Shown: in pieces, positions 26,257-42,455 of the stretch
Layout: every line of letters starts with the position of its first letter
Position numbering within the stretch: position 1 is the stretch's first letter
Origin: Acetobacter fabarum
GTDB lineage: Bacteria > Pseudomonadota > Alphaproteobacteria > Acetobacterales > Acetobacteraceae
Direction of reading: 5' to 3'
Assembly (NCBI RefSeq): GCF_011516925.1
Contig: NZ_WOTG01000009.1
Coordinates: 1-64,000, forward strand
Length of the DNA: 64,000 nucleotides
Notes under the pieces: generated by a model
The model's input: only the letters and a program-made list of their open reading frames with translations
The model's database searches: none
Told to the model about the DNA's origin: nothing
Program-made: the position numbers and the translations under genes

Positions 26257-26365
26257 TGCAAGGGGTTCCTGCCTGTGCGGTTGGTGGGGGTGGGGCAAAG
26301 CCCGGTCTGGTTGTGTATGCGGGGCATGGTTTTGGACGCACTCCTCCCTCACGCATGGTTTTGCG

Positions 26366-26433
26366 GGGTAGGAATCATCAGCCAGTAAGGCGGTTCGATT
26401 TTGGCGGGCCAAAATCCGGCAGAGTCCATTGCC
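26366..26433 (-). ncRNA. Fluoride riboswitch (crcB motif)
   Basis: Read on the minus strand, GGCAATGGACTCTGCC (26433-26418) matches the first conserved block of the crcB motif, then a hairpin (TTTTGGCCCGCCAAAA), then AACCGCC, and finally GGCTGATGATTCCTAC ending at 26368, the conserved 3' block. It lies about 110 nt upstream of the universal-stress start and ahead of crcB, exactly its expected context. Fluoride binding would switch on expression of both genes. Confidence 0.9.
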
Positions 26434-26551
26434 GTGCCTGAGTATGAATAAAACACGCCTACCAAGTCAATCCTGCCTGTATTGGCACGGCGTGCGCGGG
26501 GGAGTCTCTGGCGGATTTGCAGGGGTTAGGGACGGATTTTAAAAACATATC

Positions 26552-30735: not shown

Positions 30736-31123
30736 TGTCTCCTTCATTTGATCGAGGGGGGACAAGGTAATGAATGCGGGAGACATATGTGAACGGAACC
30801 CTTTGAAAGCACTATATAAAATATGATTCGGCACGGAGTGTTAATAACGCGGGACAAGAACCAAATCAGTTGACGAACGGCACAGTATAATACCAACCGC
30901 GTTTATAATACAAAGCACAGCCTGTGGTATTTATGCATATCACAACCAATGTGCCTGTGTGGCTGTTGTGGTTTGGTGTTTATAACATGGCTCTATGCTT
31001 TTTGTGCTGTGTGGTCGGGGGCATGCGGCATGCCGTGCAAGGGGGCGGACTTTATACCCTAACGGCATGGATGCAAGGGGTGCGTGCATGGCGGGAGCAG
31101 GTGGGTGACTGCTAATTTTTATT
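30736..31123. other. Intergenic stretch before the Fur box
   Basis: It holds the cyclase promoter side (AT-rich, 30790-30910, with TATAAT-like words at 30886 and 30904) and a 60-codon open frame from 30933 to 31115 (hydrophobic start, Cys-rich). That frame lacks a ribosome site or recognisable homology, and I do not call it a gene. Confidence 0.35.
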
Positions 31124-31142
31124 GATAATCATTCTCATAATC
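31124..31142. promoter_or_regulatory. Fur box of the PKHD hydroxylase gene
   Basis: GATAATCATTCTCATAATC matches 15 of 19 positions of the classical Fur consensus. It lies 44 bp before the hydroxylase start, so iron-replete Fur would repress the gene. Confidence 0.8.
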
Positions 31143-31185: not shown

Positions 31186-31869
31186 ATGCTGGTCCATATT
31201 CCCAAAGTTCTGACGGAGGAGGAGGTCGCGCGTTTCCGCCAGATTCTGGAGCAGCAGAACTGGGTGGATGGCAAGGTAACCGCGGGGGACCAGTCCGCCA
31301 AAGCCAAATACAACCTCCAGATTCCGCAGGACAGTGAGGCCAGTAAATATCTGGGGGACCTGATTTTGCAGGCACTGGGCCGCAACCCGCTGTTCCACAG
31401 TGCGGCCCTGCCACTGCGTGTTTATCCTCCCCTGTTCAATCGTTACGATCAGGGCATGCAGTTTGACATGCATGTGGATAATGCCGTTCGGCCCGTGCCC
31501 GGCACGGGGTTCCGCCTGCGCACGGATGTTTCCTCCACCCTGTTTTTAAGTGGACCGGATGAGTATGACGGAGGGGAGCTGGTTATTCAGGACACGTACG
31601 GCCAGCAGAGTGTCAAGCTGCCAGCGGGGGATATGGTGGTGTACCCGTCCACCAGCCTGCATGCGGTCAGCCCCATTACGCGGGGGAGCCGCTGGGCATC
31701 ATTCTTCTGGACCCAGTCCATGGTGCGGGACGACACACAACGTGCGTTACTGTACCAGTTTGACTGCTCGATTATGGAAACACGCAAGGCCCTGCCCGAT
31801 AACCACCCCGCCGTACTGGAGCTGACCGCAACCTACCACAACCTCATGCGCCAGTGGGCGGAGCTGTAA
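31186..31869 (+). CDS. Fe(II)/2-oxoglutarate PKHD-type hydroxylase, PiuC-like
   Basis: A 227-residue dioxygenase of the PiuC/YbiX family. The iron triad is visible as FDMHVDN (His-x-Asp) and [16 protein letters not shown] (distal His and the 2-oxoglutarate Arg). Proteins of this family are Fur-regulated and usually neighbour TonB-dependent siderophore receptors; their substrate is not established. Here it is monocistronic behind a Fur box. Confidence 0.92.
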
Positions 31870-36060: not shown

Positions 36061-36897
36061 ATGCGTTTTAAGGCATCTCTTGCGGCAGTGGCCGCTCTTA
36101 TGGTCAGTGCTTCGGCAGCGCATGCCGGGGCCATTCACACGGATTGGGAAAAGTTCAAGGCCGGGCGCGCCCTGCACCACCTGTCTGTGGATGGGCAGAA
36201 AGCCTTGCAGGATGTGCTGGTCGCGCGTGACCTGCTGGCACAGGGCAAAACGGATGCCGCCATCCCCCCGATTTACGATGCGCAAAAGCGCTTTGTTGCG
36301 GCACAAAAGGATAACCGGCGGTTTTATGCGGCGGAAGACCAGTTGCAGCCTGCTCCCCAGCACCCTGTTTCTGCCACCCATAAGCCCACAACCGGCGCTG
36401 TGACGTGGATTCCCGTTGGTGGTGAGTTCATTCTGACCGAAACTCTGGCCCCCGATAAAAAAGCCGCTGCCCAGCAGGCCAACAAAGCTCTCAAGGCCGG
36501 GCAGAACGCGCAGGCCCAGCAGAACCTGCAGGTAGTGGGCGAAGATGCCGACTTTATTATCGCGCTTGCCCCGCTGGAACAGACCAAAAGCACCCTGTAC
36601 CGCGCCCGGGTGCTGACCGAGGGCCGACAGGCCGCACAGGCAAAGGAGGCACTGGACCAGCTGCTGGATAGCATTGTGTTTGTCTCGGACGATTTTGTGG
36701 ACCAGTCCGCAAATGCCCAGTCCCCGGCACAAGCCCCAACGCAGGCTCCGGCCAAGGCGGCAACTCAGGGGAGCGCTGCTGAGACGCCAGCCCCGGCTAC
36801 AGCCCCCGCGCCGGCGGCTGCTCCCAGTGTTGCAGCCCCGGCTGCCGCAACCCCGGATGCCCCCAAGGCCGATTCCGCTACGGGAAGTGCCCACTAA
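36061..36897 (+). CDS. YfdX-family exported protein
   Basis: A 278-residue protein with a signal peptide (about 1-22, ending AHA), then a YfdX domain (SVDGQKALQDVLVARDLLAQGKTDAAIPPIYDAQKRF; WIPVGGEFILTE; EDADFIIALAPLEQT). E. coli YfdX belongs to the acid-response (EvgA) regulon and is periplasmic. The last 60 residues are an Ala/Pro/Gln-rich tail not seen in the enteric form. A strong terminator follows at 36935. Confidence 0.88.
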   Translation: MRFKASLAAVAALMVSASAAHAGAIHTDWEKFKAGRALHHLSVDGQKALQDVLVARDLLAQGKTDAAIPPIYDAQKRFVAAQKDNRRFYAAEDQLQPAPQHPVSATHKPTTGAVTWIPVGGEFILTETLAPDKKAAAQQANKALKAGQNAQAQQNLQVVGEDADFIIALAPLEQTKSTLYRARVLTEGRQAAQAKEALDQLLDSIVFVSDDFVDQSANAQSPAQAPTQAPAKAATQGSAAETPAPATAPAPAAAPSVAAPAAATPDAPKADSATGSAH

Positions 36898-36934
36898 AAG
36901 CACTGATAAACCAAAGGCTTGTAAGAATAACGCG

Positions 36935-36972
36935 AGGGGTGGCGAAAAAAAATTCGCCACCCCTTGTTTTTT
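36935..36972 (+). terminator. Terminator of yfdX
   Basis: AGGGGTGGCGAA (36935-36946) and TTCGCCACCCCT (36953-36964) form a perfect 12-bp stem with a 6-nt loop, followed by TTGTTTTTT. It isolates yfdX from the RNA region downstream. Confidence 0.93.
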
Positions 36973-36975
36973 CGC

Positions 36976-37006
36976 TTGCTCTTTAATGAGAATCGTTCTT
37001 ATTATC
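36976..37006 (+). promoter_or_regulatory. Fur box overlapping a promoter
   Basis: AATGAGAA (36985-36992) and TTCTTATT (36996-37003) form a Fur-like palindrome (one mismatch, 3-bp centre). A -35 TTGCTC (36976-36981) and -10 TATTAT (37000-37005) are 18 bp apart, so the box covers the promoter. Transcription would start near 37012, going right. Convergent yfdX on one side and the antisense regulator gene on the other leave only the RNA at 37012-37211 as its target. Confidence 0.7.
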
Positions 37007-37011
37007 ATCTT

Positions 37012-37211
37012 GTCGCGGTGATGAAGGCGTTTCTGCTGGTGGGGCAAGGGGCATCACCGCGACAATCTGTGGTTGTCGTGACTACCGTAAAAAACTATCC
37101 CCCCTAAACTTCCGGGCTGTTTTGCATCCCCGGTCAGTCCGGAAGGTTCTTTCTTCTCCTCCTACCCCTTGCCCTACCAGCACCCAACCCGCTCATCGAG
37201 CGGGTTTTTTA
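37012..37211 (+). ncRNA. Candidate Fur-controlled small RNA
   Basis: A region of about 200 nt between a Fur-boxed promoter and a strong terminator, with no plausible protein. Stem 1 has perfect 14-bp arms TTGTCGCGGTGATG (37010-37023) and CATCACCGCGACAA (37052-37065). Stem 2 is CTTCCGG (37109-37115) / CCGGAAG (37139-37145). Then comes an unpaired CU-rich tract containing CTCCTCCT (37156-37163), complementary to Shine-Dalgarno sequences. The end is AACCCGCT / AGCGGGTT plus T-run (37186-37210). This layout is that of a RyhB/PrrF-like iron-sparing RNA, but I recognise no known family. A 28-codon frame from 37021 lacks a ribosome site. Confidence 0.65.
37186..37210 (+). terminator. Terminator of the candidate small RNA
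   Basis: AACCCGCT (37186-37193), loop CATCG, AGCGGGTT (37199-37206), then TTTTTT. Only the rightward direction has a T-run. yfdX already ends at its own terminator 220 bp earlier, so this one has no protein-gene owner. Confidence 0.88.
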
Positions 37212-38627
37212 GTGTTCGGGCACGGCCCTGTAGGGCACAACCCCGCGCGCATTGCTGCCTGTATCCAGCACCCTGCCAGAAACAGGGAGCGAGCGGTGGC
37301 TGCATAGTTCCCGCCCACAGGCCCGGCATCCGGGGCCAATAGGTACAACCAATGTGTGGTCCGCCAGATCAAGCCCGGCGGCGTAAACGGTTTTTGCCGC
37401 ATCTGCTATGGTGCAGCCCAGCACAATGGCAATCTGCCGGGGGCGGTCGGCGTAGCTCAGTCCTTCCCGCCCGACGGTACGTGCGACATTCAGGTAAATG
37501 GAATCATCGGTGGTCTGCGAAAGCTGGACCTGAATCTGCCCCGGTGTTGCAAAGGCGCGGAACACGTTCCACAACGGGCAGGGCCCGCCAAAACGGGCCT
37601 GAGAAAAACGGTTGGCCGAAAAACTTTTAAGAATATTGCCAGCAATATCCAGTTTAAGAAAATAGAACGGAATCCCTTCCGCACCAAAGCGCTGCATGGT
37701 GCTCAGGCGGTGGCAGACCTGCTCAAAACTGACGCCAAAGTGGCGGCGCAGGTCGTCCACATCATACCGCATGTTCTGGGCCTTATGCAGGAAGCGCGTA
37801 TAGGGCAGGATGAGTGCTCCGGCAAAATAATTGCCCAGATACACCCGTGCGAGTTCCTGCGCATTGCGCTCCTTTGGGCCTTCGCGGCGCAAAATGTCAG
37901 TCATCAGGCGGGTGTGTTCCAGCTGGCCTATAATCTGGGCCAGAAAAAACAGTGTGCTTTCCGGCGGCTGGTTATGGGGGAGCTGCACCTGGCGTTTATG
38001 CCGGTCAATCCGCCAGACCAGCCCGCGTTCCTGCATATCCGTATTATGGGTTATACCCAGCCCGTGCTGGTTGCGCAGGTGTTGGGCAAGGGCTACGTCC
38101 AGCGATGTATCCGTGCGGATAAGACGTTCGTAAAATGCCTCGGCTGCACAATCAAGTTCATGAAAATAGTTGTTGTGGTCCTGCACCCAGTTACCAACGG
38201 CCTCGTAAGGTTCAAGCGGGGGTGTGCTGGCCAAGGGGGCGTGTGCGTGCCGCTCCTGTTCAAACGTGTATGCACGGTAGAGGGTTAAAAAAGCCTCGCA
38301 CAGTTCGGGGGTCTGGCGGGCGGCTTCCGCCATTTTGGTAAGTGGTAGTGGTGAGTTTTTAAAAATCGGGTCGGCCATGGTTTCGCGCAGTGCCTGCACG
38401 ACATGGGCTTCGCGCGTGTCGGCAAACCATGCGGGGCTCAGGGCAAAGCGTTCGCACAGGTTTTGCAAAAGGTGGTCGGGTAGGGGGCGGTGGTTGCGCT
38501 CAAGCTGGTTAAGGTAGCTGAGCGAGACGCCAACACGTTCCGCCAGCACGGCCTGTGTCATGCCTTCGCGCTGGCGGAGCTGGCGCAGCCGGTTGCCAGC
38601 AAACAGCTTGGTTTTGGTTCTGGGCAT
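37209..38627 (-). CDS. Short-chain fatty-acyl regulator (ScfR/RamB/PrpR-like)
   Basis: A 472-residue regulator: an N-terminal Xre helix-turn-helix ([33 protein letters not shown], about residues 12-44), an IrrE/ImmA-like middle, and a C-terminal domain ending in the Cys segment [18 protein letters not shown]. The same plan is found in RamB and the mycobacterial PrpR, which bind acyl-CoA and switch on the methylcitrate cycle. It is divergent from prpD across 130 bp. Its 3' end touches the terminator of the small RNA. Confidence 0.88.
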
Positions 38628-38645
38628 GCTCACCAACCTTCACAG

Positions 38646-38724
38646 ACTTTGCAACGGGCGCGAATTCCTTCGCTTCTTTTTACTCTTATTCCTCTGCTGC
38701 TTTACGCAACAGTCTGCAACTGTT
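38646..38724. promoter_or_regulatory. Candidate regulator sites between scfR-like gene and prpD
   Basis: ACTTTGCAA at 38646-38654 resembles the RamB operator core (ACTTTGCAAA). Further on, AACAGT (38708-38713) and ACTGTT (38719-38724) form a perfect dyad around CTGCA. Both lie in the divergent region and are plausible sites for propionate-responsive control; which protein binds which is not known. Confidence 0.45.
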
Positions 38725-38757
38725 TCCCCAGATCACAAGATGGCAAGGGCCGGAACA

Positions 38758-40320
38758 ATGCAAAATCATGAAGTGCGCGTACACCCAGAGAGTGAACGCC
38801 TGAACCGCGCAGACCAGCTGGCCTGGAAAATTGCACAGGTCGCGGCCGACCCGGTTGCGGTGGAACCTGCCGTGGCAGATATGATCATCAACCGCATGAT
38901 TGACAATGCCGCCGTAGCCATGGCCTCGGTCAACCGCCATTCGGTCATGAGTGCCCGGACAGAAGCGCTCGCCCACCGCAGGCCCGGCGGGGCTACGGTG
39001 TTTGGCATGGGGCCGGATGTACGGGTCCATGCGGAGTGGGCGGCATGGGCCAACGGTACCGCTGTGCGCGAACTGGACTACCACGATACCTTTCTGGCGG
39101 CTGAATACTCCCATCCGGGGGACAATATTCCCGGTATTCTGGCCGTGGCGCAGCAGTGTAACCGCAGCGGTGCGGACCTGATCCGCGGCATTGCCACTGG
39201 GTATGAAATCCAGATTGATCTGGCCCGCGCCATATGCCTGCACAAGCACAAGATTGACCATGTGGCCCATCTTGGCCCATCGGTTGCGGCGGGTATTGGC
39301 ACGTTGCTGCGCCTGCCGCCTTCGGTCATTTATCAGGCTATCGGGCAGGCGCTGCATGTCACCACCGCCACGCGCCAGAGCCGCAAGGGCGAGATTTCGT
39401 CCTGGAAGGCATACGCCCCGGCCCATGCAGGCAAAATGGCTGTGGAATCAGTCGATCGCGCCATGCTGGGCGAAACATCCCCAACCCCGATCTATGAAGG
39501 GGAGGATGGGGTTATTGCATGGATGCTTGATGGTAAAGATGCGCATTACACCGTGCCCCTGCCGGGTATGGGCGAACCCAAGCGGGCCATCCTGTCTTCC
39601 TTTACCAAGGAACATTCAGCCGAATACCAAAGTCAGGCGCTGATCGACCTTGCCTTCCGCATGGGCAAAAAAATCAGCAACTGGGAGGATGTGGAAGATG
39701 TGCTGATCGAAACCAGCCACCACACCCACTACGTGATCGGCACCGGCTCCAACGACCCGCAGAAGTTTGACCCACAGGCCACGCGGGAAACACTGGACCA
39801 TTCCATCATGTATATTGTGGCTGTGGCATTGCAGGATGGATGCTGGCACCACGTGCGCTCCTACGAACCCGAACGGGCGCGCAGGCCCGATACGGTGCGG
39901 CTGTGGAAAAAAATCCACACGATTGAAAAACCCGAATGGACACAACGCTACCATGAGAGCGACCCCGACAAAAAAGCCTTTGGCGGGCGTATTGTCATCC
40001 GCCTGAAAAACGGCACCGTGCTGGCAGACGAGCTGGCCGTGGCCAATGCCCATACGCTGGGGGCAACGCCGTGGCAGCGTGCGGATTACATTCAAAAGTT
40101 CCGCACCCTGTCGGAAGGTATTGTAGCTCCGGCGGAAGTTGAGCGTTTTCTGGCCGCTGTGCAGCGCCTGCCAGAACTCGGGGCGGGGGAACTCCACCAG
40201 CTTGAACTGCATATTCCGCCACAGGACATGCAGATCAACAAGGTGGAAGGCATTTTCAACTTCGGCCAGTCTGCTCTGGGTGCCAAAAATACCCGGCAGA
40301 CCGGGGCCCTCACGTCCTGA
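38758..40320 (+). CDS. prpD: 2-methylcitrate dehydratase PrpD
   Basis: A 520-residue MmgE/PrpD enzyme that dehydrates 2-methylcitrate in propionate oxidation. Typical segments are [37 protein letters not shown] and [24 protein letters not shown]. Bacterial PrpD is about 480-500 residues; the extra length is at the N terminus. The ATG at 38758 is taken, with the one at 38740 an alternative. It is the first gene of prpD-prpC-prpB-acyl-CoA synthetase. Confidence 0.93.
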
Positions 40321-40356
40321 CAGACACATAAAGACCAAGGCAGGGGAGCAACAGTA

Positions 40357-41526
40357 ATGCACACCGAACTGCACCGCACAAAACCCAAAAAATCCGTGGC
40401 CCTGTCCGGCACCGTGGCGGGCAACACGGCCCTGAGCACCGTCGGCCATAGCGGGAATGACCTGCATTACCGTGGGTATGACATAAAAGACCTTGCCCGT
40501 GCCTGCACGTTTGAGGAGGTCGCCTACCTGCTGATTTACGGCTTTTTGCCCAACACGGCAGAGCTGGAAGGATATAAACGCCACCTGATGAGCCTGCGCG
40601 ATATTCCCGATATTGTAAGGGCAGCTCTGGAACGCCTGCCAGCTTCTACCCACCCTATGGATGTCCTGCGGACGGCGGTGTCCGTTCTTGGGTGTGCCCT
40701 GCCCGAGCGGAGCGACTGCCCCACCGCGGGTGCGCGGGAAATCGCGGACAGGCTGGTGGCCTCCACCGCATCCATGCTGCTGTATTGGTACCATTATTCC
40801 AACCACGGGCGGCGGATAGACACCCATACGGATGATGCCAGTGCAGGCGGGCATTTTTTGCACCTTCTGCATGGGACCACTCCCCCCGATAGCTGGGTGC
40901 AGGCCATGCACACATCGCTCATCCTGTATGCCGAACATGAGTTTAACGCTTCCACCTTTGCCGCGCGCGTTGTGGCGGGCACCGGGTCGGACATGTATTC
41001 CGCCGTAACGGCTGCCATTGGTGCGCTGCGTGGCCCCAAACATGGGGGTGCGAACGAAGTGGCGCTGGACATCCAGCAACGCTACCACACGGCGGACGAA
41101 GCCGAGGCGGATATCCGCCGCAGGCTGGAGGCCAGAGAGGTGATTATCGGCTTTGGTCACCCGGTGTACACTCTGGCCGACCCGCGGAACGAAATTATCA
41201 AGGAAACGGCAAGGGACCTCTCCCGCCGCAACGGCACCATGCGGCTCTATACCGTAGCCGAGCGCATAGAGCGGGTTATGGCTGAACAGAAAAAGATGTT
41301 CCCTAACCTCGACTGGTTCAGTGCTGTTTCCTACAACGCCATGAACATTCCCACGGCCATGTTCACGCCTGTTTTTGTCATGGCCCGTGTGACCGGCTGG
41401 TGCGCGCATATTATGGAGCAGCGCATGGATGGAAAAATCATCCGTCCCTCTGCCAATTATACCGGGCCAGATGCCCGCCCGCTCATCCCTTTGCGTGAAC
41501 GTGATGGACTGGAGTTCGCCGCATGA
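40357..41526 (+). CDS. prpC: 2-methylcitrate synthase PrpC
   Basis: A 389-residue citrate-synthase-family enzyme that condenses propionyl-CoA with oxaloacetate. Visible are [27 protein letters not shown] near the N terminus, [12 protein letters not shown] (substrate His), IIGFGHPVY (catalytic His) and the catalytic Asp region [13 protein letters not shown]. The length is that of PrpC rather than the longer citrate synthase GltA. AGGGGAGC precedes the ATG, and the stop overlaps prpB. Confidence 0.93.
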
Positions 41527-42455
41527 CCTATCTGGTAGGCAAGGACCTGCCCGCAACGCCTGCGGGCCAGCGTTTTAAGGACATGATGCACCGCAAGGGC
41601 ATTATGCAAATTCCCGGTGCACATAACGGGCAGGCGGCCCTGCAGGCAAAAGACTGTGGGTTTGGCGCGCTCTATCTTTCGGGCGCGGCCATGACCGCCA
41701 GCATGGGGCTGCCGGATCTTGGTATTATTACCATAGACGAGGTGTGTTTTTTCATCCGTCAGGTTGTGCGTGCCACGGGCCTGCCCGTGCTGGTGGATGG
41801 AGATACCGGGTATGGTGAAACCCTGAACGTGATGAACATGGTCCGCGCGTTTGAAGAGGCCGGGGCCGCCGCCGTGCATATTGAAGATCAGGTTCTGCCC
41901 AAAAAATGCGGCCACCTGAATGACAAAAAACTCGTCTCCCCTCAGGAGATGGCGCAAAAAGTGGCCGCCGCCGTCCGGGCCCGGCGCGATATGGTGGTGA
42001 TTGCGCGCACGGATGCCGCTGGCTCGGAAGGGCTGGATGGCGCGGTAGCCCGTGCAAGGCTGTATTATGAGGCCGGGGCAGACGCCATCTTCCCCGAGGC
42101 TTTGATATCGGAAGATATGTTCAGGGAGTTTGCGCGCCGCCTGCCTGATGTGCCCCTGCTGGCCAATATGACCGAATTTGGCCGGTCCCCCTATTTTACC
42201 GCCTCCGAGTTCGAGGCCATGGGGTACAGCATGGTCATATGGCCGGTCAGTTCCCTGCGGGCGGCCAACCGGGCACAGGCGGACCTGTATGCCACCATTG
42301 CCCGCACGGGGGGCACACAGGCCATGCTTGAGCGGATGCAAACCCGCGAGGAGCTGTACAAAACGCTTCGGTATTATGATTATGAAACACTCGATGCAGG
42401 CATTGTGGCCACGGTTCTCCCGCACATTGGACAGCCCGACCGCAACGCAGCCTGA
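41523..42455 (+). CDS. prpB: 2-methylisocitrate lyase PrpB
   Basis: A 310-residue isocitrate-lyase-family enzyme that splits 2-methylisocitrate into pyruvate and succinate. It carries the catalytic KKCGH ([15 protein letters not shown]) and the Mg-binding VDGDTGYGE. The start overlaps the prpC stop (ATGA at 41523-41526), so the two are coupled. Confidence 0.94.

Follow-up and report, generated by a model that had tools for sequence, protein, structure and literature searches.

In the window (the whole stretch of 64,000 nucleotides of Acetobacter fabarum DNA that was analysed), a yfdX gene and an scfR-type gene are separated by an intergenic stretch of 236 nt (36976-37211) without a conserved open reading frame. 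The features of the locus are:

36061..36897, plus strand: yfdX-family gene, upstream context (Pfam YfdX, E 9.3e-33)
36932..36967, plus strand: terminator of the yfdX gene itself, separating yfdX from the RNA (terminator scan)
36976..37005, plus strand: promoter with -35 TTGCTC (36976-36981), 18-nt spacer and -10 TATTAT (37000-37005) (sequence reading, conservation)
36987..37001, plus strand: Fur-type operator TGAGAATCGTTCTTA, between -35 and -10 and overlapping the start of the -10
37012..37211, plus strand: predicted RNA (fold; covariance-model match 37010-37181)
37186..37211, plus strand: intrinsic terminator (stem 37186-37206 and T run)
37209..38636, minus strand: ScfR-type regulator, convergent neighbour (Pfam ScfRs, Peptidase_M78, HTH_3)

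The 5' end of the RNA was inferred from the promoter and the 3' end from the terminator. An initial annotation of this DNA had described a Fur-like palindrome over a promoter (TTGCTC, 18 nt, TATTAT), a rightward terminator of the RNA and a separate terminator of the upstream gene; all of these were found again, the palindrome being read directly at 36987-37001. The scfR-type gene is divergent from prpD-, citrate-synthase- and PEP-mutase/ICL-type genes, and by Pfam family names the gene set at 37209-42455 is that of the 2-methylcitrate pathway. The prpD-type gene is the next plus-strand gene 3' of the RNA and lies about 1.3 kb further on; since the terminator and the antisense scfR gene are in between, a function as leader or attenuator was rejected for the window. 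Elsewhere in the window, a fluoride riboswitch (Rfam RF01734, 41.2 bits) was found on the minus strand at 26362-26442, and a nearby minus-strand open reading frame from 25406 resembles CrcB by eye.

Of 61 genomes searched at the DNA level, 13 contain the element, and all 13 belong to the genus Acetobacter. A covariance model was built from the sequences of these 13 genomes and relatives were searched with it, as the initial annotation had proposed. The RNA was found in 16 of 49 Acetobacter genomes with E values from 2.3e-33 to 3.7e-46, 13 of the 16 being members used to build the model, which match by construction. Since the remaining 33 of the 49 genomes gave no match, the RNA is not a means of iron sparing common to the whole genus. 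Across the family, 397 genomes were searched and six matched, four being members of the genus and two, with weak matches, belonging to other genera (G384 and G075; 27.7 and 28.9 bits); the latter were rejected because the core was absent on reading. Stricter filters were used in both the genus and the family-wide model search. An exact scan of a genome collection of 84,980 species with the invariant 20-mer GCTGGTGGGGCAAGGGGCAT returned 12 records, 11 from Acetobacter (A. pasteurianus, A. suratthaniensis, A. okinawensis twice, A. syzygii, A. papayae, A. pomorum, A. lambici, A. lovaniensis, A. peroxydans and one uncultured) and one from Novosphingobium (L020), which was rejected since the 3' partner of the long helix S2 (see below) is absent in the stretch examined. 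An aconitase gene tree was made for 39 genomes, 12 of them carriers, four of 43 genomes being omitted because of split or short loci (G005, G025, G029 and G010); the carriers fell into three clades. A single origin of the RNA with later losses is possible. At one locus (L123, genome G003), yfdX and scfR are adjacent without the RNA or a Fur box, representing an empty version of the site; this genome stands next to the peroxydans clade in the aconitase tree.

According to the coordinates, scfR is the immediate neighbour of the RNA in 11 of 13 carriers, and in the window the coding end of scfR (37209) falls within the terminator region of the RNA. Both observations would suit an RNA that acts mainly in cis, as antisense to the convergent scfR transcript, and so ties propionate control (prpDCB-type genes) to iron. 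In two genomes of A. okinawensis (G005 and G022), however, the RNA was kept, with about 2.6 kb between it and scfR. In the two A. okinawensis records this space is occupied by a TonB-dependent receptor gene on the strand of the RNA, identified as an open reading frame in both and by Pfam in L027 only:

L027 4854-7214, strand of the RNA: TonB-dependent receptor gene beside the RNA
L023 6018-8000, strand of the RNA: TonB-dependent receptor gene beside the RNA

Because the RNA persists where it is separated from scfR, we give the antisense function very little credence; furthermore, the covarying structure described below would be unneeded for simple antisense. The receptor gene starts about 180 nt past the terminator of the RNA, and since this terminator is kept before it, the A. 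okinawensis RNA is still read as stand-alone.

Folding of the RNA (37012-37211) gave -87.2 kcal/mol compared to a shuffle mean of -59.1 (sd 4.0; z -7.0), a value reached by none of 200 shuffles. The structural elements are:

37010..37065, plus strand: hairpin S1, perfect 14-bp stem (arms 37010-37023/37052-37065), the loop of which holds the S2 5' arm
37035..37051, plus strand: S2 5' arm GCTGGTGGGGCAAGGGG in the S1 loop, invariant (one variant in 15 distinct rows)
37165..37181, plus strand: S2 3' arm CCCCTTGCCCTACCAGC, pairing with 37035-37051 and crossing S1
37109..37145, plus strand: hairpin S3, 11 bp with one G.U (arms 37109-37119/37135-37145)
37122..37132, plus strand: invariant S3 loop TTGCATCCCCG, candidate seed

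S1 is the perfect 14-bp stem of the initial annotation. The second stem, given there as 7 bp, is actually the 11-bp stem of S3, and the 17-nt complementarity of S2, which dominates the predicted fold, had been missed.

To quantify covariation, the members were aligned in two ways. In the model-fitted alignment (16 rows, 15 distinct), which was fitted to S1 and S3 and hence favours them, 96.3% of 630 cells pair and 12 pairs are changed on both sides, four in S1 (96.7% of cells paired) and eight in S3 (94.5%). The covariation score was 0.247 versus 0.111 in shuffles and was reached by none of 500, a test that is inflated by related rows, as is its counterpart on the plain MAFFT alignment of 13 rows, which gave a similar result (92.1% paired, 11 pairs, 0 of 500 shuffles). 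When the partners were slid by 1-3 columns, pairing fell to 37-56%. Further pair types did not exceed the shuffles, 85 of 500 being as high with the model-fitted and 322 of 500 with the MAFFT alignment. Conservation of the stems, on which the initial annotation had made its reading depend, is thus borne out by the 12 double-changed pairs, and that of the Fur box by exact identity in 15 of 16 members.

S2 lies outside the covariance model and was predicted independently by the single-sequence fold and by RNAalifold, which picked S2 and S3 unaided. Its 16 inner pairs are paired in 240 of 240 cells; the nine changed cells are all wobbles, arise from the 3' arm and include no double change. The outermost pair is kept in 8 of 15 rows and fails in 7. 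The 5' arm occurs in one variant and the 3' arm in seven, and the two arms resemble each other on opposite strands. A purely structural helix is expected to change by wobble in its C-rich arm and to leave its G-rich arm unchanged, since transitions in the G-rich arm break pairs and those in the C-rich arm keep a wobble; an extra function of the invariant 5' arm is therefore unnecessary and was rejected. In isolation, the S1 segment has an energy of -28.4 kcal/mol and the S2 duplex one of -38.7. As the 5' arm of S2 is the loop of S1, the two helices cross and, given these energies, would give either a pseudoknot or a switch in which an early S1 is later replaced by S2. With a linker of 11 nt spanning S2, the pseudoknot is, on the geometry that we assume, presumably feasible.

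The terminator differs between clades. A GC-rich hairpin is present in the clade of the window; in the other two, pasteurianus and peroxydans, S2 is followed by T runs and the hairpin is, by reading, weak or absent. The RNA is non-coding, conserved and bounded by a terminator that is weaker in two of three clades. In three loci of the peroxydans clade (L011, L012 and L013) no GC-rich terminator hairpin follows S2 and the T runs closely trail its 3' arm; for this reason S2 itself may serve in termination there.

We also considered a small protein as the product of the locus. An ATG at 37021 opens a frame of 28 amino acids (MKAFLLVGQGA...), the first 11 residues of which are common to 13 of 16 members. 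Against this, the frame varies from 14 to at least 60 amino acids across members with unrelated later residues, the three members of the peroxydans clade are in a different frame after a 1-nt deletion, no Shine-Dalgarno sequence was seen by eye, and the sequence changes are accounted for by covariation of the stems. A protein product deserves next to no belief, and the small frame was rejected.

No Rfam 15 family, including RyhB, PrrF and NrrF, matched 37012-37211 at its gathering score. With a lax threshold the best match inside the RNA was Trp_leader with 23.6 bits versus a cut-off of 41 (E 0.012); such sub-threshold matches to Trp and Phe leaders most likely reflect hairpins plus a terminator. 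The suggestion of a new family was therefore upheld: judged by its sequence, the RNA represents an undescribed family that is found in part of the genus Acetobacter and matches none of the described RNA families tested.

The promoter elements TTGC and TATTAT are retained in 16 of 16 members with a spacing of 17-18 nt. A consensus promoter scan did not list this promoter, TTGCTC agreeing with TTGACA in three of six positions, and the promoter is claimed because it is conserved across members. The Fur box TGAGAAT-NN-TTCTTATTAT carries its single change in L013. A conserved Fur-type operator thus overlaps the RNA's own promoter, as is characteristic of the functional class of RyhB and PrrF, and an RNA family with such an operator is well supported. 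In its own genome the operator is the only exact match to TGAGAATNNTTCTYA. Allowing up to one mismatch gave 11 matches (nine distinct sites), compared to one for the reversed pattern, and three of the eight other distinct sites, each with one mismatch, are at iron-related loci:

window 31123-31137: Fur-type palindrome TGATAATCATTCTCA, 48 nt before a gene for a PKHD-type Fe2+-dependent dioxygenase (PiuC/YbiX; 31186-31869)
C4:2237-2251: Fur-type box ahead of two genes in a row, for a cupredoxin and then for an FTR1 iron permease
C14:42067-42081: Fur-type box between a TonB-dependent receptor and ExbB/ExbD

At the remaining five sites no clear iron gene was found among the nearby open reading frames; Pfam, applied to one neighbour each at three of them, gave LysR, dihydroorotate dehydrogenase and PepSY.

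The box could also be served by an Irr-, Mur- or Zur-like regulator, with haem, manganese or zinc as signal instead of Fe-Fur. GAA-N3-TTC cores are common to several Fur-superfamily operators, and of the three FUR-family proteins encoded in the genome, one Fur-like and two Zur-like, the Fur-like one is under every NCBIfam equivalog cut-off listed (76.3 versus 146 bits for the ferric uptake regulator). On the other hand, ferric uptake regulator is the top NCBIfam match of this protein (111.5 bits in Pfam), the Irr models score lower (45.7 and 43.1 bits), the other two proteins match Zur best, also under its cut-off, and the same type of box stands before iron-related genes. Another metal regulator is thus improbable and the protein acting on the operator is most likely Fur; repression by Fur is inferred from the operator box and from the presence of this box type before iron-related genes.

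As to the element that might contact mRNAs, the initial annotation had pointed to a CU-rich tract as anti-Shine-Dalgarno sequence:

37156..37163, plus strand: CTCCTCCT tract

The tract is present, but its proposed function did not stand. It is exact in only 4 of 16 members; CTCCTCC occurs in 8 of 16 and neither sequence in the other 8, and the tract was rejected as functional core because it is not conserved. A better candidate for a seed is the invariant UUGCAUCCCCG loop, which sits atop S3, the stem of which covaries. A second AUCCCC element is present upstream of the S3 loop in 13 of 16 members; the other three have GUACCCCCG.

Aconitase is a classical iron-sparing target and was therefore tested first. 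Indeed, TCCCCGGTCA / UCCCCGGUCA at 37127-37136 is complementary to the Shine-Dalgarno region of acnA, UGAUCGGGGA, over 10 nt with one G.U. In the own genome the duplex has an energy of -20.1 and ranks 6th among 339 start regions (mean -12.8, sd 3.4), which is weaker than rank 1 of 110 in a first, smaller screen. The open reading frames behind the 339 regions were predicted with a script, which was run on the acnA and sdh loci, on 0.4 Mb of the genome and on the window; some of these starts are certainly spurious and the true starts of the sdh genes lie outside the scored set. In 12 of 15 carriers the pairing with acnA amounts to -18.6 to -21.0 kcal/mol, with 4-16 of 500 shuffled loops as good, and in the three carriers of the peroxydans clade to -14.3, with 106-110 of 500 as good. 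All 15 of 15 carriers have the ten-letter site, but so do 11 of 28 non-carriers, and its occurrence therefore does not track that of the RNA; together with the weak pairing in the peroxydans clade, this gives no support for co-evolution of the RNA and acnA. AcnA is therefore a weakly supported, yet the leading, candidate target. Directly before the Shine-Dalgarno sequence of acnA, about 15-60 nt before the start, the leader contains a hairpin, which in carriers reads ATCACCAGCC, loop, GGCTGTGAT; it is common to carriers and many non-carriers (loci L140-L187), has another sequence in another clade, and may be a separate cis-regulatory element.

Exact complements of the 11-nt S3 loop were found at 33 places in the 15 carriers, 15 of which are the RNA itself. 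Among 16 of the 18 others, one place each in G005 and G300 being left out of the reading, no nameable recurring sense target was found: four are integrase-like genes by eye, three lie in one stretch of the pasteurianus group and the rest are single. By eye, the sdhC leaders of 14 loci contain no long match to the S3 loop.

These results bear on the possibility that the Fur-controlled RNA does not act by base pairing at all, and that scaffold and C-rich loops bind a protein (sponge or scaffold), with the conserved loop as protein site. The most conserved features are indeed structural (S1, S2 and S3) plus one loop, 13 of 16 members have both AUCCCC elements, and apart from acnA there is no convincing conserved mRNA complement. 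Nevertheless, an invariant loop over a changing stem is the usual mark of a seed, as is argued for RusT in the part of PMC11005374 consulted, and the match to the acnA Shine-Dalgarno sequence ranks 6th of 339. We regard a protein-binding RNA as unlikely.

Our preferred reading, which we consider likely, is a Fur-repressed, trans-acting base-pairing sRNA that resembles RyhB and PrrF in function, belongs to a separate family and lowers the translation of iron-using proteins. In the presence of iron, Fur would occupy the operator between -35 and -10 and block transcription. Under iron shortage, transcription would yield an RNA of about 200 nt, from around 37012 to around 37211. Hairpin S1 would form first, and its loop would then be captured by the 3' part of the RNA through the 16-17 bp of S2, giving a stable pseudoknot or an S1/S2 switch. 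This scaffold would hold out hairpin S3, and the UUGCAUCCCCG loop and the second AUCCCC-type element in the linker could pair with G-rich ribosome-binding sites of mRNAs, reducing the translation of iron-using proteins, with acnA as leading candidate. The TonB-dependent receptor gene beside the RNA in the two A. okinawensis genomes agrees with this reading. Iron sparing under scarcity is probably the function of the RNA, and the earlier view that it is this organism's iron-sparing RNA is plausible. Overall, the observations of the initial annotation were confirmed and its interpretation was partly supported.

RyhB of E. coli, PrrF1/2 of Pseudomonas, NrrF of Neisseria, FsrA of Bacillus and IsrR of Staphylococcus are Fur-repressed iron-sparing sRNAs. 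The Acetobacter RNA is like them in having a Fur-type operator on its own promoter, a stand-alone gene and a terminator, and in that an iron enzyme is a candidate for repression at its ribosome-binding site. Unlike them, it has a length of about 200 nt, a long-range helix of 16-17 bp crossing the 5' stem and a C-rich candidate seed loop, and it is present in only part of Acetobacter and matches no Rfam family. RusT of Caulobacter crescentus is, according to the available part of PMC11005374, an alphaproteobacterial sRNA of iron starvation with a conserved hairpin-loop seed, 118 nt long, controlled by NtrYX and encoded between lolA and xth. Both RNAs are alphaproteobacterial and have a conserved hairpin loop, but the Acetobacter RNA has other neighbours and a Fur-type operator; this distinction is drawn from the description of RusT, not from its sequence. 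The alphaproteobacterial sRNAs of the ar14 type have CU-rich loops. C-rich single-stranded elements suited to Shine-Dalgarno pairing are shared with them, but the score with the ar14 model was 12.7 bits versus a cut-off of 58.8, and the CU tract is not conserved here.

Fur-responsive alphaproteobacterial sRNAs are already reported. Of the iron-responsive Caulobacter sRNAs in the consulted part of PMC6120978, R0117 increased both on chelation and in a fur mutant, and R0088 solely in the fur mutant; the part of PMC11475020 seen is in agreement with such sRNAs, and that of PMC3751524 contains the speculation that two sRNAs are processed from a Fur-repressed operon. The portions of main text consulted of PMC5756330 (Gluconobacter RNA-seq), PMC6691051 (A. 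pasteurianus RNA-seq) and PMC8102297 do not describe the RNA. In the open-access literature covered, neither an alphaproteobacterial sRNA with a Fur operator of its own nor a Fur-repressed sRNA of Acetobacter was found. Tentatively, the RNA might be the first alphaproteobacterial sRNA family that is directly repressed by Fur via its own operator and has two states, the crossing helices S1 and S2 both being preserved in evolution. Target binding or an RNase would then shift it between the S1 form, with the C-rich 3' arm free, and a closed form, S2 or pseudoknot, in which the S3 loop is presented.

In many bacteria, Fur-repressed sRNAs explain the silencing of iron-using enzymes at iron starvation. 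If true, an sRNA family of acetic acid bacteria that covaries and has a Fur box would fill in the missing case among culturable food bacteria, and the crossing of S1 and S2 poses a clear structural question.
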